In this document: positions 19,176 to 30,393 of the stretch, one piece after another
Layout: every line of letters starts with the position of its first letter
Position numbering within the stretch: position 1 is the first letter of the stretch
Assembly: GCF_001806325.1 (NCBI RefSeq)
Contig: NZ_CP017580.1
Coordinates: 3,596,001-3,660,000, forward strand
Source of the DNA: Curtobacterium sp. BH-2-1-1
GTDB taxonomy: Bacteria > Actinomycetota > Actinomycetes > Actinomycetales > Microbacteriaceae
Reading direction: 5' to 3'
Length of the DNA stretch: 64,000 bases
Notes under the pieces: generated by a model
The model's database searches: none
Told to the model about the DNA's origin: nothing
The model's input: only the letters and a program-made list of their open reading frames with translations
Translations under genes and position numbers: made by a program

Positions 19176-21255
19176 GCTTCTTCTCCTGCTCGGGGAGGCG
19201 ACCCGCGGCCGCCTCGGCGGCGAACCAGGCCTGCGCCTCGTCCTGCCGGGCCTGCTCGGCACCGAGCGCGATCGGGGCGCGGACGTGGCCGGCCTCGTAC
19301 CCGAACGAGTCGAGCAGCTGCGGGATGACCGGTCGGACCCGGGCGACGAGGCGGTCGATGTACGCCGAGACCGCCCGCGCCCGCTGCGCCGTGATGCGCC
19401 CGTGCATGAGGTACCAGTCGAGGTGCTGCTCCAGCAGGCCGAGGGCGAACAGGTCGCGGAGCCAGACGAGCACGCGGCGGGTGTCTCCCGGCGGGACCTC
19501 GTCGATGGCCTCGGTGAAGGCCTCCCACTGCATGAGCTCGGCGTGGGCCTTGGCCGCCTCGATGAGCTCGTGCTGCGAGCGGTTGAGCAGTCGGGCGCCG
19601 CGTGCGCGGTCCTTGCCGGCCGACGCGAGGCGCATGCCGATCTCGGTGACCATCGTGTCGACGCGGCCGGCGAGCAGGTCGCGCTGCGTCCTGGCGTCCT
19701 GCAGGTCCGTGACGGACGCGGCGAGCGAGCCGCGGTCGGTCATGGTCTGCCCGAGGCGCCGGAGGCCGGTGGCGTCGGCGAGCTTCGTGGCTGCCTGGGC
19801 CGCCACGAACTTCGCGGTCGACGCCGGGTCCTTCGGTGCCTTCGCGCGGAAGTCGGTGAGCAGGCGCTTGCCGACGAGCTGGAGCAGCACGGTGTTGTCG
19901 CCCTCGAACGTCACGTAGACGTCGAGGTCGGCGCGGAGTCCGGTAAGGCGGTTCTCGGCGAGGAACCCGGCACCGCCGCAGGCCTCGCGGCACTCCTGGA
20001 GCGTGTCGAGGGCCGACCACGTGGACATCGACTTGAAGGCCGCTGCCTGGGTCTCGAGGTCCTCGCGACGCTGCGGGGTGTCCTCACGCCCGCTGAACAC
20101 GTCGTCGAAGGTGCGGAGGAGCTTCTCGTGGGCGAACGACTGCGCGAACACCGTGGCGAGGCGGGGGATCAACCGGCGCTGGTGCCGGCCGTAGTCGAGC
20201 AGGACCCCCTCGGTGCCGTCGCCCGTCGGGAACTGGCGGCGCTGTGCCGCGTACGTCAGCGCGATCTCCAGGCCGATCTTCTGGGCGACGACCGCGGCGC
20301 CGTCGAGCGACACGCGGCCCTGCACGAGGGTGCCGAGCATGGTGAAGAAGCGGCGACCGGGCGAGGCGATCGGCGAGGAGTAGGTGCCGTCCTCGGCGAC
20401 GTCGCCGTAGCGGTTCAGCAGGTTGGTGCGGGGGACGCGCACGTGGTCGAAGTGCAGCCGGCCGTTGTCGATGCCGTTCAGGCCGCCCTTGTAGCCGTCG
20501 TCCTCGCCGCCGACACCGGGCAGGAACGCACCCTCGGCGTCGCGGAGCGGCACGTAGAACGCGTGGACGCCGTGGTCGACGCCCTGCGTCACGAGCTTCG
20601 CGAAGACGACGGCCGCCTTGCCGTGCAGGGCGGCGTTGCCGATGTAGTCCTTCCACGCGCCGCGGAAGGGCGTGTGGATCTCGAACTCCTGGGTCGCCGG
20701 GTCGTAGGTCGCCCGCGTGGCGATGCTCTGGACGTCCGAGCCGTGCCCGGTCTCCGTCATCGCGAAGCAGCCGGGGACCTCGAACGAGACGATGCCCGGC
20801 AGGAACTCGCGGTGGTTCCGTTCGGTGCCGAGGTGGTGCACGGCCGAGCCGAACAGCCCCCACTGCACGCCGGCCTTGATCTGCATCGAGGGGTCGGCCG
20901 TGGTGAGCTCCTCGAACGCGGCGAGGTTGCCGCCGTGGTTGCTCGAGCCGCCGAACTCCTCGGGGTAGGGGCGCTGGATCGCACCCGCGTCGACGAGGAT
21001 GCGGAGCTGGTCGAGCGTCCGGGCGCGGGCGTCGGCGTAGGGCATGCCCTCGACCTTGTGCATCGCCGGGTCGAGTGCGAGTCGGCGCGAGGCTCGGCGG
21101 TCGTCCGCCCAACGGCCGAGCAGGTGCTCGGCGAGCAGGTCGACGTCGATCCGGACGTCGGTGTCCGTCCCGCCGGCGGGCGTGCCCGCGGCGGGGTCGC
21201 CGGCGGCGTCGGCCTTGGGCGTGTTCGTGCTGTGGACGGGTGCGGTGTCGACCAT
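19165..21255 (-). CDS. Acyl-CoA dehydrogenase/oxidase family protein
   Basis: A 696-residue flavoprotein from the ATG at 21255, which has a strong AGGAGG ribosome-binding site 9 bases upstream. The N-terminal ~60 residues are a polar extension. The acyl-CoA dehydrogenase core shows FAMTETGHGSDV (flavin/substrate motif, about 185-196) and later the acyl-CoA oxidase-like stretch GRVSLDGAAVV and ECREACGGAGFL. Length and the second half match acyl-CoA oxidases (about 650-700 residues) better than the ~380-residue dehydrogenases. It should catalyse the alpha,beta-desaturation of acyl-CoA in fatty acid oxidation. Whether oxygen or ETF is the electron acceptor cannot be decided from the sequence alone. 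Confidence 0.88.
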   Translation of the reverse strand: MVDTAPVHSTNTPKADAAGDPAAGTPAGGTDTDVRIDVDLLAEHLLGRWADDRRASRRLALDPAMHKVEGMPYADARARTLDQLRILVDAGAIQRPYPEEFGGSSNHGGNLAAFEELTTADPSMQIKAGVQWGLFGSAVHHLGTERNHREFLPGIVSFEVPGCFAMTETGHGSDVQSIATRATYDPATQEFEIHTPFRGAWKDYIGNAALHGKAAVVFAKLVTQGVDHGVHAFYVPLRDAEGAFLPGVGGEDDGYKGGLNGIDNGRLHFDHVRVPRTNLLNRYGDVAEDGTYSSPIASPGRRFFTMLGTLVQGRVSLDGAAVVAQKIGLEIALTYAAQRRQFPTGDGTEGVLLDYGRHQRRLIPRLATVFAQSFAHEKLLRTFDDVFSGREDTPQRREDLETQAAAFKSMSTWSALDTLQECREACGGAGFLAENRLTGLRADLDVYVTFEGDNTVLLQLVGKRLLTDFRAKAPKDPASTAKFVAAQAATKLADATGLRRLGQTMTDRGSLAASVTDLQDARTQRDLLAGRVDTMVTEIGMRLASAGKDRARGARLLNRSQHELIEAAKAHAELMQWEAFTEAIDEVPPGDTRRVLVWLRDLFALGLLEQHLDWYLMHGRITAQRARAVSAYIDRLVARVRPVIPQLLDSFGYEAGHVRAPIALGAEQARQDEAQAWFAAEAAAGRLPEQEKKPSA

Positions 21256-21469
21256 GGTCGGAGCCCTCCTGAACTGCTCTGTCCGGTGTTGCAGAACCCA
21301 CGCTATTGATCGGACCCGCGAGTCGCGTGAACGCCGTCCGGGGCTGACAACGCGGGTGGCCCGTGGGTCGGCCGCGGTCGTGGGAACCCTCCAAACGACC
21401 GCGCCCGGCGTTCCTGAGGCGAGTTCAGCGATTCGGCGCGGCCCGGCTCCGAGGGGCAGAATGTGCGGC

Positions 21470-22924
21470 ATGTCAGGTACCACCACGCCCGCACGCGGGC
21501 GGACCTTCTTCGGGCAACCGTTCGAGTTGTCGACGCCGTTCGCCGTCGAGCTCTGGGAGCGGTTCTCGTTCTACGGGATGCAGGGCATCGTCCTCATCTA
21601 CATGTACTACACGCTCTCGCAGGGCGGGCTGGGCATCGACAAGGGCGTCGCCAGCGGGATCATGGGTGCCTACGGCGGAGCCGTGTACCTGTTCACGATC
21701 ATCGGGGCGTGGATCGCCGACCGCCTGCTCGGTGCGGACCGGACGTTGTTCGGCAGCGCCATCGTCGTGATGCTCGGGCACATCGCCCTCGCGCTCATCC
21801 CCGGTGTCGCGGGCGTCGGCGTCGGCCTCGTGCTCATCGCGCTCGGCTCCGGCGGGCTCAAGGCCACGGCGACGACGATCGTCGGCGGGCTCTACAGCCC
21901 GGACGACCCCCGTCGTGACGCCGGCTTCTCGCTCTACTACCTCGGCGTGAACCTCGGGGCGTTCTTCGGTCCGCTCCTGACCGGCCTGCTGCAGAGCTCG
22001 CTCGGCTTCCACTACGGCTTCGGCCTTGCTGCGGTCGGCATGGCGGCCGGGCTCGTGCAGTACGCGATCCGCCGCCGCAAGCTGCCGGAGTCCGTGCGCC
22101 ACGTCACGAACCCCGTCGACCGCCGTCGGCTCCCGCTCATCGGCGTGCTCGTCCTCGTGGCACTCGCGGTGATCGTGGTCGCCGTGCTGACGGGGCTCCT
22201 GAACGTCGACAACCTGCCCACCGTGGTCGTCGCCATCGTCATCCTCGCCACGATCGGGTACTTCGTGGTGATCCTCTCGAGCGGCATCACCGCGCAGGAG
22301 CGGTCGCGCGTGTTCGCCTTCATCCCCCTGTTCATCGGCAGTGCGGTGTTCTGGTCGCTGTACCAGCAGCAGTTCACCGTCGTGACCGTCTACTCCGACG
22401 AGCGCCTCGACCGGTCCCTGTTCGGCTGGGAGATGCCGGTCTCGTGGGTGCAGTCGATCAACCCGGTCTTCATCATCGTGCTGTCCGGCGTGTTCGCGGC
22501 GATCTGGACGAAGCTCGGCGACCGTCAGCCGTCCACCCCGACGAAGTTCGCCCTCGGCACCGGCATCATGGGCGTCGCGTTCCTGCTCTTCCTGCCCTTC
22601 GTCGGCACCGGGCAGAACGGCACGCCGCTGCTCGCCCTCGTCGGGATCCTGCTCGTCTTCACGATCGCCGAGCTCCTGCTGTCGCCGGTGGGCCAGTCGG
22701 TGGCCACGAAGCTCGCACCGCCGAAGTTCCAGACGCAGATGGTGGCCCTGTTCTTCCTGTCGGTGTCGCTCGGCACCGCCGTCACGGGGGTGCTCTCGCA
22801 GTACTACGACCCGGCGGACGAGGCGCCGTACTTCGCCGTCCTCGGGCTCGTCGCCGTCGCGGTCGGTGTCGTCCTGCTCGTCCTCGCCAAGCCGGTGCTG
22901 AAGCTCATGCGCGGCATCCGCTAA
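21470..22924 (+). CDS. POT/PTR family peptide:proton symporter
   Basis: A 484-residue transporter with about 14 membrane segments. The PTR family entry motif is present as FAVELWERFSFYGMQGI (ExxERFxYY type, about 24-40), followed by the GAYGGAVYLFTIIGAWIADR stretch. The family imports di- and tripeptides with protons. Two in-frame ATGs exist (21461 and 21470); the second is preferred because a -10-like CAGAAT lies 7 bases before it, as in other leaderless genes here, but this is uncertain. It probably complements the two peptide ABC transporters in the window. Confidence 0.9.
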   Translation: MSGTTTPARGRTFFGQPFELSTPFAVELWERFSFYGMQGIVLIYMYYTLSQGGLGIDKGVASGIMGAYGGAVYLFTIIGAWIADRLLGADRTLFGSAIVVMLGHIALALIPGVAGVGVGLVLIALGSGGLKATATTIVGGLYSPDDPRRDAGFSLYYLGVNLGAFFGPLLTGLLQSSLGFHYGFGLAAVGMAAGLVQYAIRRRKLPESVRHVTNPVDRRRLPLIGVLVLVALAVIVVAVLTGLLNVDNLPTVVVAIVILATIGYFVVILSSGITAQERSRVFAFIPLFIGSAVFWSLYQQQFTVVTVYSDERLDRSLFGWEMPVSWVQSINPVFIIVLSGVFAAIWTKLGDRQPSTPTKFALGTGIMGVAFLLFLPFVGTGQNGTPLLALVGILLVFTIAELLLSPVGQSVATKLAPPKFQTQMVALFFLSVSLGTAVTGVLSQYYDPADEAPYFAVLGLVAVAVGVVLLVLAKPVLKLMRGIR

Positions 22925-23384: not shown

Positions 23385-24302
23385 TCAGTTCCAGATGGAG
23401 ATCCAGTCGACGGACACGGTGCCCGTCGCGTCCGTCGGGACGGCGCCGTGGTCGGTCCACGTCTCGCCCTGCAGGGTCACGCGCATCGGCTTCGTCGGCA
23501 CGGCCTCGGTGGTGGAGGAGACGAGCTCCCCGTCCCAGTAGAAGCGGACGATGCCCGTGTCCCACTCGGTGGTGGCGACGTGGTACTCGGTGGTGTCGGT
23601 CTTCGCGTGGACCTGCACCGAGCGGTCGTACTTGACGTGACGGTTCGCGTACGTTCCCGGGATCGCGGACGCGGGGCGCGGCGATGCCCCGAGCGTGAGT
23701 GACTCCGGCCAGTCGATCTCGCCGTCGTTCCACTCGTCGGAGGACGGCCACAGCATGCCGACGAACTTGTACCCGTCGGTGACCGTGGTCTTGTAGCGGA
23801 TGCTGACCCGTGCCGTCGTGTGCGGTGCGTACCCGTCCGGCATGACGGCGGCGACGAGCGGTCGGCCGCCCTCGGAGTGGAAGTCGAAGTCGAGGTTGCC
23901 GTCGGCGACGGACAGCACCTTCGCAGGCGCGTACGTGCCGAGTCCGCTGGTGTCCTGGAATCCGTCGTAGAGGCCCATGCCGGGGTAGACGGATGCCACC
24001 GTGCCGAGTGCGGCGGGCTTCGTGAAGTCCTCGGCGTACGACTGCCGCCAGGTGCGTCCGTTCGACGTGACGTCGCCGACCGGGAGTGTCGTCGGCACGG
24101 CGGTCGGGGTCGCGGTCGGGGTCGGGGTGGGTGTGGGCGTCGGTGTCTGCTTCGGCGTCGGTGTGACCAGCGGAGTCGCCGTGGCGGTGGTCGGTGCCGC
24201 TGTCGACCCCGGTGCCGTGGAGGACGGGACACACGCAGCGAGCGCGCCGGCGACGAGGAGCCCGGTGACGATCGCGCCTGCGGTGCGTGTGCGAGTGGTC
24301 AC
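23385..24302 (-). CDS. GH16-like glycoside hydrolase lipoprotein
   Basis: A 305-residue protein from the GTG at 24302. It has a lipoprotein signal (lipobox LAAC near residue 20-23), a Thr/Pro-rich linker (about 40-70, repeated TPTP units) and a concanavalin-like GH16 domain of ~230 residues. The catalytic ExDxxE motif of family 16 appears as EIDWPE in NDGEIDWPESL, so nucleophile and acid/base residues are both present. GH16 enzymes cleave beta-1,3/1,4 glucans, laminarin, agar or related polymers; the substrate here is open. It should sit on the outside of the membrane. The frame continues upstream without a plausible start. Confidence 0.85.
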   Translation of the reverse strand: MTTRTRTAGAIVTGLLVAGALAACVPSSTAPGSTAAPTTATATPLVTPTPKQTPTPTPTPTPTATPTAVPTTLPVGDVTSNGRTWRQSYAEDFTKPAALGTVASVYPGMGLYDGFQDTSGLGTYAPAKVLSVADGNLDFDFHSEGGRPLVAAVMPDGYAPHTTARVSIRYKTTVTDGYKFVGMLWPSSDEWNDGEIDWPESLTLGASPRPASAIPGTYANRHVKYDRSVQVHAKTDTTEYHVATTEWDTGIVRFYWDGELVSSTTEAVPTKPMRVTLQGETWTDHGAVPTDATGTVSVDWISIWN

Positions 24303-24413
24303 GGTACGGTCCCTGCTGGAGTCGGTGGAGCTCCTGGCGATCGTAGTCAAGGAGTGCCCGGCGGCCTGCTGTTGCCGGCACCCCAGTCCGGGGGTGGCGG
24401 GAACGGTCGCCCT

Positions 24414-24502
24414 GGTCGCACGACATGCCGTGCGCCCGTCGCCGGGGTCGCACGAGGTGCCGCTGCTGCCGGCGCCGGGCGGCAGTTCGTGCGACCCCGG
24501 CG
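24414..24502. repeat. Repeat/palindrome element between jetC and the GH16 gene
   Basis: GGTCGCACGA(c/g)(a/g)TGCCG occurs twice as direct copies (24414-24430 and 24446-24462). The second copy is one arm of a long hairpin: 16 bp perfect (CGCCGGGGTCGCACGA at 24440-24455 with its complement at 24487-24502), a 2x2 internal loop, 6 more bp, and a 15-base loop. It lies in the 245-base gap on the 3' side of jetC. It could be an intercistronic terminator or a REP-like element; there is no U tract. Confidence 0.6.
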
Positions 24503-24547
24503 GCCCGCGAACGGGCGGTCGGCCCGCGGACGGGACGGGACGCGCGC

Positions 24548-27500
24548 CTAGGCCCCCACGGCGGCCCGCGCGATCTCGGTGATCGACGAGTGCCCGGTGT
24601 CCGGGTGCTTGCGCATCGACAGGAGCCGCTCCATCGAGGGCTCCAGCGCCGTGACCTTGTCGAGCGGCGCACTCACGACGAGCTGGAACCCGAGCCGCAG
24701 CCACGCCGTCACCGCACGCCCCGCGAACTCCGAGTCCGCCTTGATGAAGGCCTCGTCGAGGAACACCGGCGCGAACCGTGGCCGCGGCCGGGTCTCGTCG
24801 CCGAGCTGGTACCGGAGCGCTGCACCGACGATGAACGCCACGAGCTCCTGCGTCTCACCGCCGGACTTGTCACCGAGGGACGAGTACACGCCGAGGTCGT
24901 TGCCCTCGGTGTCGTACCGCACGGCCGTGATCTCCATGTGCCGACGGACGTCGAGCACGGCGTCACGCTGCGTGGTCCGGCCGCCACGCGGGACGGACGG
25001 GTCGGGGCGGATGACGGCCATGAAGCGTCGGAGCCGGCGGAACCGGGTCTCGAGCACGTCGTCGGTCAGCTCGGTGTCGACCGACGCCGACAGCGCCCGG
25101 AGCTCCCGGCGGAAGGCCGTGACCTCTTCGCGCGTGACCCGGCGGATCTGGATCTTCAGCCGGTCGCGGTTCGCACCGAAGGGCAGCTCGCGGAGGATCT
25201 CGTTGACCGGTTCGAGCCGCTCCTCGATCTCGACGACGGCCCGGTCGAAGGCACCGGCGAGCGGGACGAGGTCCTCGCCGCTCCACTGCGACAGGCGTCG
25301 GCGCCACTCGCTCCGGCGGGAGTGCAGGCCGGTCGCGACGATCTGGTCGAGGATGGCGCGGTAGTCGGGGTAGGACGCGACGCCGGTCCCGAGGTTCGGG
25401 TCCGGCCAGGCGTCCTGGTAGCGCTGGAAGGTCAGCGTCAGCGCGGTCGAGGCCGACGCGGCGCCGTCGAGCGCCTGTGCGAGGCGTTCCTCGAGCCGTC
25501 GCTTCAGTCGGCGGGTGGCGTCGTCGAAGCCGTCGACGCCGTCCGGTGCTCCGATCTCCTCGAACGTCTCGGACAGCAGCTGCGCCTGTCGGTCGTCCGG
25601 CAGGGCGTCAGGGGTGTCCTCGAAGCGCGCCAGGATCTCGGCCGCGGCGTCCTGACCGTCCACGAGCACGGCGTGCCGCTCCTCGAGCCGGGCGACGGAC
25701 TGGCGGGCAGCAGCGCGACGGTCCGACGCCTCGTCGAGGGACGCCCGGAGCCGACCCACGGCCGAACGCAGCGTGCGGAGGCCGTCGTCGGCGGCGAGGA
25801 GCGCCTGGCGTTCCTGGTCGAGGCGGGCGAGCGAGTCCTCGAGCCCGACGACGTCGATCGCCTCCCACGTGACGTCGACGATGTGCTGGTGCGCGGCGCG
25901 GAGGACGTCGAGCGCCGTGATGTCCTGCGCGACGTCGGTACGCCGGGCCTCGAGCGTGGCGAGGTCCTCGGCGATCGCGGCCAGCTCCTGCTCCACCGAG
26001 GCGACCCGCGCCTCGTTCGTGAAGCCGATGACGTTCGCCTGACGCCGGTCGCCGTGGGCACCGCGTCGACCGTCGCGGAGCTGCCCGGACTCGGTGACGC
26101 GCCGACCGCCGCCGCCGAGGTCCGCGGCGGACCCGACGCACCGGGCGTCGGTGCGGTCGGACTCGATGCGCTCGCGCACCCAGGTGCTGAACGGCGACTG
26201 CTTGATCGCGAGCTTGCCGGACACCATGGACGGGTCGCCGTCGACGTCGATGTGCGGCCCCGTCGGGACGCCCTCGAACTGCACGCGCACCGGCAGGCGG
26301 AGCGCGTCGATCGCCTCGCTGAAGTCGGCGAGGCGGTCCTGGTCGACCAGGAGCGTGCGGGCGACGGGCGCCAGGACGGACTCGATCGCCGTGCGCCAGC
26401 GCTCCTCGCCGGGCAGCACGTCGAGCAGTTCGGCGACGAAGGGCAGCTCGGACGGGTCGATGCCGGCGGCGCGGGCCATCGCCAGTCGGGCTTCGTGCAT
26501 CGGCAGCGGCATCGCGCCCTGTCGGTGCTCGAGCGACTGACGCTCCTGGCGGAGGGACCGCTCGCGGTCGAGGAGCGGGTACTCCTCGCGGGTCAGGGCG
26601 TCACGGCGCTCGTCGAGCTCCGCGCGCGACGCGGGGTAGGTGCCGAGGAACTCGTGCGACGCCCGCTGCGCGGCGGTGAAGGACTGCTCGGTGGACACGG
26701 GGGACCCGAGCACGGCCGTCCGCTCGTCGAACGTCGCCCGGGTGCGGACGACGGCGTCGCGCTCCCGCGTCCGACGGTCGATGCGGTCCTCGAGCTGCGC
26801 CAGCGCGTTCCCGCCCTGGTCGCGGAGCCGGGCCTCGGCATCGCGCAGCTCGATCTCGACCGCGGCGTGCCGGGCCTCCGCCGCGGCGACCTCGGCGCGG
26901 GCAGCCGTGCGTTCGCGCCCGTTGCGGTCCACCTCGGCGTCCAGGAGCGCTCGCTTGCGCGATGCGGTCCAGTGCGCGAACGGGGACACCTCGGCGCCGG
27001 TCGCGATCCCGTCGAGCGCCTCGGCCGCGGCCCTCGAGCGCGCGATCTCGGCGTGCAGTTCGGTGATGGGGGAGAGGATGCGGACCTTGCGCTCCTCGGT
27101 GTCCATCGCCTCGTACGCCTCGTCGAGGGCGGAGAAGTGCGCGAGGGCGCGGTCGGCGGCCTCGTACGTGCCCGGCGTCTCGAGCACGAGCGACTTGTAC
27201 AGGGCGTCGACGGTGGGCAGGTGCTGCCCGGCCTGGATGCGCGCGAGGAGCCGCATCGCCCGGTTGCCGCCGCCGGAGTCGCCGATCCCGAGGCGGGTCT
27301 GCAGCGTGTACGCGAGCTCCTGGTAGGTGTCGCGGATGACGAGCCCCGGTACGCGTCCGGTGAGCTCGAGGTGGTGGAACCGCGTCGGCACGAACTCCTC
27401 GAGCCGGCGCAGGTCGAACGTGTCGTCCACCGTCGCCATGGTCATCTGGATGTCGCCGACGCCCCGCGCACGCTTCGGCACGATGTACGCGCGCAGCACC

Positions 27501-27916
27501 GTGAAGCGCCGCTCGTCGTCGTTCCGGAACGTCACCGCGACGGCACCCCACGTGGTCTGGTCGTCGCCGCGCAGGTTCACGTCGCGCAGGGCGCCGGACT
27601 CGGGGTCGCGACGGGTGTCCACCTTGCCGCGCAGGTACGTCAGCAGGTTCCGCTGGTCGGCACTGCGCGCGCGCCCGGTGGTCGCGTCGTTCGATGCCCC
27701 GTTGAACGGCACGTCCGACGGCATCATCACGGCGAGGTACGCGTCCATCAGCGTCGACTTGCCGGTGCCGGACGCGCCCGAGATGAGCGTCGCGGTGCCG
27801 GACAGCTCGACCTGGCGGTGGCCGTGGAAGCCGCCCCAGTTCACGACCTGCATCGACTCGGCGCGCCACTGTGCGACGGTGTCGAACAGGGCCGGGATCT
27901 CGAAGGTGTCGGTCAC
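24548..27916 (-). CDS. jetC: Wadjet JetC: SMC/MukB-like ATPase
   Basis: A 1122-residue SMC-type ATPase, the motor of the Wadjet plasmid-defence complex. Walker A GASGTGKST is at 47-55, the ABC signature KSGGE at about 1017-1021, and Walker B FLDEAF with Asp1054-Glu1055. Between them lie long Glu/Arg/Ala-rich heptad stretches typical of antiparallel coiled coils with a hinge region near the middle. All residues needed for ATP hydrolysis are present. The GTG at 27916 overlaps the jetB stop (GTGA), so it is translated with jetA-jetB. In known type I Wadjet, JetABC extrudes DNA loops and JetD cuts small circular DNA. No JetD gene follows: the next gene on this strand is the GH16 lipoprotein. Confidence 0.92.
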   Translation of the reverse strand: MTDTFEIPALFDTVAQWRAESMQVVNWGGFHGHRQVELSGTATLISGASGTGKSTLMDAYLAVMMPSDVPFNGASNDATTGRARSADQRNLLTYLRGKVDTRRDPESGALRDVNLRGDDQTTWGAVAVTFRNDDERRFTVLRAYIVPKRARGVGDIQMTMATVDDTFDLRRLEEFVPTRFHHLELTGRVPGLVIRDTYQELAYTLQTRLGIGDSGGGNRAMRLLARIQAGQHLPTVDALYKSLVLETPGTYEAADRALAHFSALDEAYEAMDTEERKVRILSPITELHAEIARSRAAAEALDGIATGAEVSPFAHWTASRKRALLDAEVDRNGRERTAARAEVAAAEARHAAVEIELRDAEARLRDQGGNALAQLEDRIDRRTRERDAVVRTRATFDERTAVLGSPVSTEQSFTAAQRASHEFLGTYPASRAELDERRDALTREEYPLLDRERSLRQERQSLEHRQGAMPLPMHEARLAMARAAGIDPSELPFVAELLDVLPGEERWRTAIESVLAPVARTLLVDQDRLADFSEAIDALRLPVRVQFEGVPTGPHIDVDGDPSMVSGKLAIKQSPFSTWVRERIESDRTDARCVGSAADLGGGGRRVTESGQLRDGRRGAHGDRRQANVIGFTNEARVASVEQELAAIAEDLATLEARRTDVAQDITALDVLRAAHQHIVDVTWEAIDVVGLEDSLARLDQERQALLAADDGLRTLRSAVGRLRASLDEASDRRAAARQSVARLEERHAVLVDGQDAAAEILARFEDTPDALPDDRQAQLLSETFEEIGAPDGVDGFDDATRRLKRRLEERLAQALDGAASASTALTLTFQRYQDAWPDPNLGTGVASYPDYRAILDQIVATGLHSRRSEWRRRLSQWSGEDLVPLAGAFDRAVVEIEERLEPVNEILRELPFGANRDRLKIQIRRVTREEVTAFRRELRALSASVDTELTDDVLETRFRRLRRFMAVIRPDPSVPRGGRTTQRDAVLDVRRHMEITAVRYDTEGNDLGVYSSLGDKSGGETQELVAFIVGAALRYQLGDETRPRPRFAPVFLDEAFIKADSEFAGRAVTAWLRLGFQLVVSAPLDKVTALEPSMERLLSMRKHPDTGHSSITEIARAAVGA

Positions 27917-28707
27917 GCTTCCGTCTCGCCTTCGTCGTCGGTGTCGGTCTCGTCGGCCAGGAGGGACGGGTCGTCCCCGTCGGTCGGCTCGCCGTCCGGG
28001 GTGGTCGCGTCCCCGGGCGCGGTGGCGGTCCGCGACGCTGTGCTCGCCAACCACGTGTCGAGGTCGCGCAGCCGCTCCAGCGGGAGCAGCACCTCCACCA
28101 CGCTCGCGACACGGAACCGGTCCGGGTCGCTCGTCTTCAGCAGGACCCGGGCGGTCACGAGGCGTTCGACCGCCTTCGCCACGCGGCCCTCGTCACGGGT
28201 GCGGTCGGTCGCCGTCGCGGGGCGGAACCCGGCGACGTGCCCGAGGATCTCGGAGCGGTCGACGACGACCTGGTCCGGGCCCGGGCGGGTGTCGGCGCGG
28301 AGGCGCATGCGCAGGTAGACGAGGACGATCGTCTCCTCGCGCGTGTACGGGACGTCGCGCAGCAGCGTGGGGAAGCCGCGGCGCTGGCTCTCGGAGCGGG
28401 CCTGACGCTTCCAGGCGACCTCGCGGTCGCGGTCCACGTGCAGTTCGAGGAACAGGTCGTTGAGGCGCGAGCGGAGCTGGTACTCCGCGTCGAGCACGGC
28501 GCGCCACTCGTCGGCGTGCGTCCGTGCGCTGACGTAGGAGTTGCGGAGCAGCGCCACGAGGGCACGGCGCTGCCGGTCGTCCAGTCGGCCCTCGTCGCCC
28601 TCGAAGAGTGCGAAGCTCGTCTCGTCGCGCTCGTCGTCCTGCGGGACGGGTGCGGGGTCGTCGTAGGGGACCGTCTCGTCGACCGGTGCCGGCGTCGTGT
28701 CGCTCAC
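27913..28707 (-). CDS. jetB: Wadjet JetB (DUF4194)
   Basis: A 264-residue protein of the DUF4194 (MukE/kite-like) family. The core (about 35-215) is helical with winged-helix character: ALFEGDEGRLDDRQRRALVALL, VLDAEYQLRSRLNDLFLELHVD and TREETIVLVYLRMRLRAD (quoted in part). The C-terminal ~40 residues are Asp/Glu/Thr-rich and disordered. JetB bridges the kleisin JetA and the SMC heads. Start GTG overlaps the jetA stop and its own stop overlaps the jetC start, so the three genes form a tightly coupled operon. Confidence 0.9.
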   Translation of the reverse strand: MSDTTPAPVDETVPYDDPAPVPQDDERDETSFALFEGDEGRLDDRQRRALVALLRNSYVSARTHADEWRAVLDAEYQLRSRLNDLFLELHVDRDREVAWKRQARSESQRRGFPTLLRDVPYTREETIVLVYLRMRLRADTRPGPDQVVVDRSEILGHVAGFRPATATDRTRDEGRVAKAVERLVTARVLLKTSDPDRFRVASVVEVLLPLERLRDLDTWLASTASRTATAPGDATTPDGEPTDGDDPSLLADETDTDDEGETEA

Positions 28708-30236
28708 CGCGCCTCCTGTGCGTGTTCGTCGTTCGTCGTGTCTGGCGTCCGGTCGTGGCGCTCGTCGGTGAGCGCCGCGGTCGGCATGTGGAAGGTGACC
28801 GGGCTGCCGTCGGGACGGACCGTCCGGTGCTCGGCGAGGTGCGTGGCGGACTCGAAGTCCTCGTGACCGGTGAGGAGGTGCGCGAGCCCGAAGAGCTCGA
28901 CCGGACGCCGCTGCTCCGGCGGCAGGCCGTGGAAGGCGTCGACGCTGGAGTCGGCCTCGGCGGAGCGCAGTGCCGCGCGGAGCTCGGTGAGGAGCGGTCC
29001 GCCGTGTCGCCGGAGCGTCTCCACGTCGAGTTCCTCGAAGACGTCGTCGTCCGGCTCCTCGATCGCGGGCGGCACGGACTCGGCGTCCGGGTCGTAGAAC
29101 CGTTCGCGCAGCGTGCCGACCTCGGCCGTCGCCGGCAGGAGGCCGAGGGGCAGCCGGTCGCGCGCCGACCCCTGCTCCATCCAGGTCGCGAGCCCGCGCT
29201 CGATCGACCGGATGACGGCGTCGAGTTCACGGTCGCGGGCGACGTCGTGCGCGACGATCTGGTCGCGCAGCGTCGCCGTGAGCTGTCGTCGCTGGGCGAG
29301 GACGTCCTCGATGCCCTGGCGGAGGATGACCACCGTGTTGCGGAAGGCCCGACGCTCGGACGCCCCGAGGGAGTCCGCGAAGGGGTGGGCCAGGATCGTC
29401 GCGATGTCGTCTCGGAGCCGCAGCAGCAGGGCGTCGTCGCGGAGCAGTTCGAACGCCCCCTCGAACGCACGGCCCTCGGGGGTGGCCTGCATGAGGTTGT
29501 CCGTGCGGGCGAGGTAGTCGTCGAGGATCTCGCCGATCGGACGGACCTCTTGTCGGAAGTCCTCGACGATCGAGCGGTGCATCGTCGCCACCGCTTCCTC
29601 CACACGCTTGAAGTCGCTCGGGAGCTGGCGGATCAGGTCGGAGATGTTCGTGTAGCCGTCGCGCATCCGGGCGTCGTCCACGGTGTCCACGTCACCCTGC
29701 TCGAGTCGCTCACGCTCGGCCTGGAGCTCGGCGATCTGCGCGTCGATGCGGCGGATCTGTACGTCGGGGTCGGGCTCGGCGCGGGCGGCCCAGCGGTGCA
29801 CGGCGTCGACGATCATCGCGAGCCGGCTCTCGCTGATGAGCGCCCGGTCGGAGGACAGGGCGTCGACGAGGGACAGGGCCTCGAGCGCGTGGCTCGTCAG
29901 GGAGTACTGCTCGTCGCCGTCGGGGGAGTTCGAGCGGACGAGCCACTGCGCGGCGACCCACTCGCGGCAGAGGGCGCGGCCGTTCGGTCGGGCGTCCTGC
30001 TCGGGCTGCTCCGCCTGCTCGCTCGCGGGGGTGCGCGCGCCGGCGGCCTGGAGCCGTGCGACGTGCTCCTCGACCTGCAGGTGCATCCGGTCCGCGGGGA
30101 CGTACTGCACGTCGCGGTCGAACACCGTGCGGAACACGGCGAGGACGACGGCGCTGGTCGGCCGGGACATCAGCCGGAGGGTCGGACGGCCGAGGACTGC
30201 CCGGACCCGGGCGAACTCGAGGTCGACGTCGGTCAT
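28704..30236 (-). CDS. jetA: Wadjet JetA (DUF3375, kleisin-like)
   Basis: A 510-residue protein of the DUF3375 family, the JetA component of type I Wadjet. Recognisable features are the N-terminal domain (ARVRAVLGRPTLRLMSRP..., about 8-130, with a winged-helix pattern around AVVLAVFRTVFDRD) and a long coiled central region (about 150-330). JetA is the kleisin-like bridge of the condensin complex. ATG start with GAAGGGG upstream as ribosome-binding site. It begins 45 bases past the hairpin terminator of the minus-strand tRNA-Val, so the operon probably has its own promoter there (a TTGAGA -35-like hexamer is visible near 30270). Confidence 0.9.
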   Translation of the reverse strand: MTDVDLEFARVRAVLGRPTLRLMSRPTSAVVLAVFRTVFDRDVQYVPADRMHLQVEEHVARLQAAGARTPASEQAEQPEQDARPNGRALCREWVAAQWLVRSNSPDGDEQYSLTSHALEALSLVDALSSDRALISESRLAMIVDAVHRWAARAEPDPDVQIRRIDAQIAELQAERERLEQGDVDTVDDARMRDGYTNISDLIRQLPSDFKRVEEAVATMHRSIVEDFRQEVRPIGEILDDYLARTDNLMQATPEGRAFEGAFELLRDDALLLRLRDDIATILAHPFADSLGASERRAFRNTVVILRQGIEDVLAQRRQLTATLRDQIVAHDVARDRELDAVIRSIERGLATWMEQGSARDRLPLGLLPATAEVGTLRERFYDPDAESVPPAIEEPDDDVFEELDVETLRRHGGPLLTELRAALRSAEADSSVDAFHGLPPEQRRPVELFGLAHLLTGHEDFESATHLAEHRTVRPDGSPVTFHMPTAALTDERHDRTPDTTNDEHAQEAR

Positions 30237-30311: not shown

Positions 30312-30320
30312 GCGGGTGGG

Positions 30321-30393
30321 TGGGCGATACCAGACTCGAACTGATGACCTCTTCGGTGTGAACGAAGCGCGCTACCAACTGCGCCAATCGCCC
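30321..30393 (-). tRNA. trnV: tRNA-Val (anticodon CAC)
   Basis: 73 bases fold as a cloverleaf: acceptor GGGCGAT/ATCGCCC, discriminator A, anticodon stem CTTCG/CGAAG with loop TTCACAC, giving CAC for GUG codons. The T arm carries GTTCGAGTC. CCA is not encoded. It is the only minus-strand member of the tRNA cluster. Confidence 0.93.

Follow-up and report, generated by a model that had tools for sequence, protein, structure and literature searches.

The window analysed in this study is a stretch of 64,000 nucleotides from Curtobacterium sp. BH-2-1-1 (contig NZ_CP017580.1). By Pfam and PADLOC profiles, it carries an intact type I jetA-jetB-jetC operon on the minus strand (positions 24548-30236). 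In Wadjet systems, JetC dimers bridged by JetA extrude DNA loops together with JetB, using ATP, and JetD cuts the fully extruded circles. The operon in the window is composed of the following features.

28704..30236, minus strand: jetA, DUF3375 kleisin subunit (MksF/MukF-like), 510 amino acids, ATG start; PF11855 E 3.8e-100, PADLOC JetA1 604 bits, PDB JetA 8dk1 E 6.6e-19
27913..28707, minus strand: jetB, DUF4194 KITE subunit (MksE/MukE-like), 264 amino acids, GTG start, GTGA overlap with the jetA stop; PF13835 E 1.8e-32, PADLOC JetB1 370 bits
28582..28608, minus strand: LFEGDEGRL, a conserved segment close to the N-terminus of JetB (residues 34-42), from alignments and a pattern count
24548..27916, minus strand: jetC, SMC-type ATPase (MksB/MukB-like), 1122 amino acids, GTG start, GTGA overlap with the jetB stop; PADLOC JetC1 1392 bits, PF13558, PF13555
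27752..27778, minus strand: Walker A motif of JetC, residues 47-55, from the sequence; its lysine is kept in 76 of 76 JetD-less rows

Thus, the original prediction of a Wadjet type I core joined by GTGA overlaps was borne out by the profiles and the sequence. The Walker A, signature, and Walker B motifs that it had assigned to JetC were found both in the sequence and in the alignment columns. In the PDB comparison, the best solved relative of JetC is JetC 8dk2 (E 2.7e-51), and the nearest solved relatives of JetC and JetA are JetC chains and JetA chains, respectively. JetB reaches the PDB JetB chains solely via an alignment profile. Assignment to another condensin family had been named as an outcome that would overturn the identification. 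JetC scored 21.9 bits against the NCBIfam MukB model PRK04863 (cut-off 699) and 35.4 bits against the prokaryotic SMC model TIGR02168 (cut-off 567), failing both family cut-offs, while the Wadjet type I JetA1, JetB1, and JetC1 profiles matched. The MukB N-terminal family PF04310 gave a weak match of 29.1 bits. A separate ScpB is encoded at genome positions 445818-446297. Thus, a standard condensin coexists with JetABC, which would be a second SMC complex of this bacterium.

No JetD was found beside the operon or in the window, as had been predicted, and a tblastn search found none at the window locus. The genome is a single contig of 3,795,948 bases, and profile searches of it with PF09983 and with PF11795 gave no match. 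Corynebacterium glutamicum, the positive control, matched in both searches, as expected for its MksG. The suggestion that JetD might be encoded elsewhere in the genome was therefore not borne out, and the JetD (DUF3322/DUF2220) of Wadjet type I is missing.

Is the operon common in the genus? JetC is present in 63 of 66 genus genomes. Apart from the window genome itself, 58 of the 63 have a JetC 87-97% identical over nearly the full length. In the remaining ones, the match is 73% identical (G002), in pieces (G024 and G010), or cut by a contig end (G022). Apparent internal stops in four jetC matches (L018, L026, L027, L029) lie outside the gene after re-alignment. No JetC match was found in G042 and G043, both 99% complete, or in G065, which is 73% complete and so undecided. 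G042 and G043 are 99.3% identical to each other over 10.4 kilobases (kb); their tRNA cluster is kept, while jetABC and the neighbouring transporter gene are gone, probably by one loss event. In these two genomes (L229 and L228, respectively), another reading frame occupies the site between the tRNA cluster and the downstream genes.

JetD_C was found in one of the 66 genus genomes, G002. Its JetD adjoins a second JetC, 29% identical to the query, with its own JetA, JetB, and JetD. Thus, one genome holds both a nuclease-free and a complete system. A hidden JetD elsewhere in the genus was also sought with PF11795 over the 66 genomes, and only G002 and, weakly, G005 matched. The former match is the JetD of the second, complete system. 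The latter (22.2 bits, one internal stop) overlaps other reading frames, with no JetC in the 3.4 kb seen, and was taken as chance.

Among 299 genomes of the family with at least 90% completeness, JetA (PF11855) occurs in 79 and JetD_C in 35. There are 83 JetA places, fragments and below-cut-off matches being left out; JetD_C lies within 10 kb in 30 of them, and 53 are without it. These 53 places are in 53 genomes, nine of which have a JetD_C match elsewhere. Seven of the nine also hold a JetD-bearing operon, the match of G181 is a 71-residue frame, and the JetA of G311 is cut by a contig end. In G246, which is among the 53, JetC is also missing in the stretch fetched. In the order (248 genomes), JetA occurs in 100 and JetD_C in 53. 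Cryobacterium has JetA in 53 of 55 genomes: in 51 genomes a JetA scores 320-368 bits, where the six JetD-less ones placed in the tree also fall, and in 16 a JetA exceeds 430 bits; the search of these 55 genomes was for JetA. In family f12, L269, L270, and L263-L267, about 2.5-5.6 kb of other sequence lies between JetA and JetB, in contrast to the tight operon elsewhere. For these loci, JetD_C was not found in the genomes G411, G515, G383, G463, G489, or G367, and the match in G583 is short, weak, and far away.

A phylogenetic analysis of JetC was performed with 98 loci (97 fetched loci and the window), of which 94 gave a usable JetC, 64 JetD-less and 30 JetD-bearing (L118, L185, L186, and L187 were dropped). 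In the FastTree tree of the 94 rows, 25 JetD-bearing canonical operons stand against a clade of 64 JetD-less and five JetD-bearing operons. The window JetC sits in this mostly JetD-less clade with the JetD-bearing operons interspersed. The window clade persists in a larger tree of 117 of 132 rows, in which order-level and named loci were added and 15 genus rows were left out. Here, the midpoint root leaves the JetD-less operons of g32, g51, g67, f6, f12, and one of f9 on the same side as the canonical ones. The Streptosporangium amethystogenes JetABCD (L216), whose JetC is 47% identical to that of the window, nests inside the Microbacteriaceae clade. In an IQ-TREE analysis of 44 rows, eight JetD-state changes are needed, well-supported branches making all eight of them unavoidable, and a single change suffices in 0% of 200 bootstrap trees; the rows were chosen by hand, the long branches L294 and L296 were flagged, and 2 of 500 shuffles were equally low for one label. 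The closest pair, in genus g44, has JetCs 94.2% identical to each other and JetD in one partner only. The JetDs from the window clade cluster together, L294 included, with weak inner support. This grouping does not prove, but favours, many losses of an ancient JetD rather than its repeated gain. Comparison of relatives had been proposed to tell whether jetD was deleted or never present; it gave at least eight changes of state and leans towards deletion.

The loss seems to be clean. With trimmed JetD queries in tblastn (E<=1e-3), 91 JetD-less loci yielded no remnant of JetD; among them, L208 and L264 end near or inside the operon, and the genes of L110 are broken. As a control, JetDs of other loci recovered 41 of 41 JetD-bearing loci (L157 and L188 are of the same genome). 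Untrimmed stop-to-stop frames had given apparent JetD traces at the jetC 3′ end in many JetD-less loci, but these were a frame-extension artefact and disappeared after trimming. A replacement gene downstream was not found either: clustering of flanking frames in 78 of 94 family loci gave one widespread same-strand downstream family, and it was JetD itself (29 loci).

The core, in contrast to a decaying gene set, is well preserved. Besides the invariant Walker A lysine, the signature and Walker B residues are kept in 75 of 76 JetD-less rows, the exception being a locus cut short. These residues were read from alignment columns, because regular-expression matching gave false misses due to frame extension and clade-specific signatures. 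The median ratio of nonsynonymous to synonymous substitution rates (dN/dS) is 0.226 for JetA, 0.264 for JetB, and 0.158 for JetC, and 0.230 for the intact neighbour transporter (153 pairs, 18 genus loci). Relaxation of the JetD interface was examined at the columns that are conserved across 19 canonical systems (JetA, 109 columns; JetB, 53; JetC, 249). None was seen: 18 chosen JetD-less rows depart as often as nine JetD-bearing kin, and one JetA column differs between the JetD-less and JetD-bearing sets.

By a rough pattern, the JetB LFxGDxGxL-type segment is present in 72 of 90 JetD-less and 34 of 40 JetD-bearing rows; the pattern misses the three f13g100 rows, although the segment is plain to see in at least L281, and lets through one questionable match. 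The segment is missing in some JetD-bearing JetBs (g2, g5, g66, and others) and is unseen in the aligned PDB JetBs. It could not be equated with the IFDR JetD-contact motif. Loss of the segment was observed in JetD-less g32 (L174-L179, L184), g51 (L180, L181), and g67 (L182).

How does this operon compare with known systems? It resembles Wadjet type I (JetABCD, MksBEFG, or EptABCD) in having a DUF3375 JetA, a DUF4194 JetB, and an SMC JetC in the A-B-C order with short overlaps, but differs in that JetD is absent from both operon and genome, and in being fixed in the genus rather than patchy. As stated in a part of PMC9252829, PADLOC calls Wadjet only when JetABCD is complete and lists partial sets under "other". 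Pseudomonas aeruginosa MksBEF is a three-subunit MukBEF-like SMC complex beside Smc-ScpAB, thought to have lost JetD according to sections of PMC10586767 and PMC7485682. As in such nuclease-free MksBEF, the window has a kleisin-KITE-SMC operon without MksG/JetD. However, P. aeruginosa belongs to another phylum, and the likeness is one of subunit plan, not of sequence comparison with the PAO1 proteins. MukBEF shares the subunit plan and the weak PF04310 match, but the MukB cut-off was failed and Smc-ScpAB is also present in the window genome. P. aeruginosa MksBEF is a published precedent, so the machine in the window is a variant of a familiar type, remarkable for its frequent origin. In the literature titles and abstract openings searched, which covered few subscription journals, no description was found of type I operons that lack JetD and belong to the genus core in these bacteria.

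The intact genes, the place fixed genus-wide (see below), the absence of JetD, the repeated change of JetD state, the purifying selection, and the retained ATPase residues argue for a functional complex. Of the three alternatives in the original prediction, the one supported is a condensin-like complex that operates in the absence of its nuclease, and a functional nuclease-free SMC complex is very probable. On the best reading of these comparisons, JetD would be an optional part, repeatedly and cleanly lost, and JetABC would be kept as a nuclease-free MksBEF-like SMC motor. It is rather probable that this is a functional type I JetABC complex whose JetD was lost long ago and which is kept by selection for the motor alone. 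Given a functional nuclease-free complex, the chance that its job is chromosomal falls just short of even. A pair of JetC ATPases, linked through JetA and with JetB attached, would load onto DNA and use ATP to extrude loops. With JetD missing, no cleavage would end the cycle, and the complex might compact or position DNA. The most likely substrate would be the chromosome, on which JetABC would work alongside Smc-ScpAB as an additional condensin, in the manner of P. aeruginosa MksBEF.

Several points weigh against an optional JetD and a motor kept for its own sake. The near-identical G042 and G043 lack the operon, which is thus dispensable. Since JetD-less groups also lie on the canonical side of the root, "JetD-less" is, judging from the 117-row tree, not a single lineage with one new function, and the nesting of L216 suggests transfer between orders. 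The nuclease-bearing MksBEFG of C. glutamicum acts on plasmids and not in chromosome folding, as reported in parts of PMC7083940 and PMC10123090. Vertical descent in the genus is deduced from genus grouping and synteny, not from a species tree, and the role proposed for JetABC here is read from sequence. The conservation of the JetB segment in most JetD-less operons could also mean an unseen partner.

Such a partner might be a nuclease or other protein encoded elsewhere that docks on JetABC in trans, for example at the JetB N-terminal segment, whose frequency in JetD-less JetBs would fit. However, the flanks of JetD-less operons share no gene from genus to genus except in scattered small clusters (78 family loci, order-level loci excluded), and the segment, missing in some JetD-bearing and PDB JetBs, is not shown to be a nuclease dock; I regard a trans effector as quite unlikely. 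It is also unlikely, if a little less so, that JetABC restrains plasmids without a nuclease, sensing small circles by total extrusion and then compacting, silencing, or mis-segregating them, like Smc5/6 on viral circles. The Wadjet sensing core (outlined in a part of PMC10586767) is kept unrelaxed and JetABC remains where JetD is lost, both as plasmid restraint would have it, but the genus-wide fixation differs from the patchy canonical systems in the same family. Slow decay of a lost defence system, another alternative of the original prediction, might explain the loss of the operon in G042/G043 and the broken jetC in G024 and G010 (G010 is 65% complete, and its break is perhaps a sequencing error). 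It is nevertheless very improbable, with JetC kept in nearly the whole genus, ATPase residues intact, dN/dS well below 1, and no JetD remnant.

Tentatively, and at somewhat under even odds, the Micrococcales JetABC may be a second, nuclease-free housekeeping condensin, with JetD a detachable part that turns it to plasmid defence, switched many times with the core unchanged; defence machine and chromosome machine would then be one motor with or without a blade. How close SMC relatives both maintain chromosomes and destroy foreign circles is a question raised by reviewers, who note that a JetABC core has no documented activity on chromosomes (PMC10586767). The many natural JetD-less JetABC operons and close JetD-bearing sisters in culturable bacteria (Cryobacterium, Glaciihabitans) make this question directly testable by sister comparison. 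The finding is also a warning for programs that look for defence systems, which will come across JetABC operons of the genus core that possibly do not serve defence.

The surroundings of the operon in the window include the following features.

30319..30393, minus strand: tRNA-Val(CAC), the fixed left-hand neighbour of the operon in the genus, 82 bases upstream of jetA
24400..24545, no strand assigned: dispersed repeat in the jetC-GH16 gap, at least 25 matches (E<=1e-3) in its own genome, self included
23385..24302, minus strand: GH16-like gene, outside the system; PF00722 E 4.3e-06
21044..22924, plus strand: reading frame of a POT-family transporter, with an uncertain true start, the fixed right-hand neighbour of the operon in the genus; PF00854

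All 18 other genus loci scanned have the same four tRNA genes adjoining jetA, and all 18 checked have the POT transporter on the far side of jetC, although L103 revealed it only with a trimmed transporter query. In other genera, eight loci were scanned, and none showed a tRNA close to the operon. A Pfam scan of eight neighbouring reading frames gave five with a match over or near the cut-off, and by Pfam alone these look ordinary (transport, sugar, carbamoyltransferase, hydrolase, and methyltransferase genes). The original prediction had hinted at a defence island by noting the tRNA cluster as a common landing place. The adjacency is real, but a landing-site island does not fit with the cluster and operon staying together in the genus loci among ordinary neighbours. 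The operon is neither decaying nor a fresh island. No close mobile relatives of JetC were found: 16 plasmid records have relatives, the best at 41.9% identity, and there is one phage record.

The predicted 245-base gap with a repeat element (24303-24547), followed by an unrelated GH16 gene, was confirmed. At E<=1e-5, none of the 20 other genus loci fetched (L091-L110) showed the GH16 gene, which thus gives no sign of what removed jetD. The 25 matches of the repeat, from 40 of 172 candidates scored, include its own place and inverted self-matches. The repeat is REP-like (repetitive extragenic palindromic) in character, and some of its genomic matches occur in inverted pairs.

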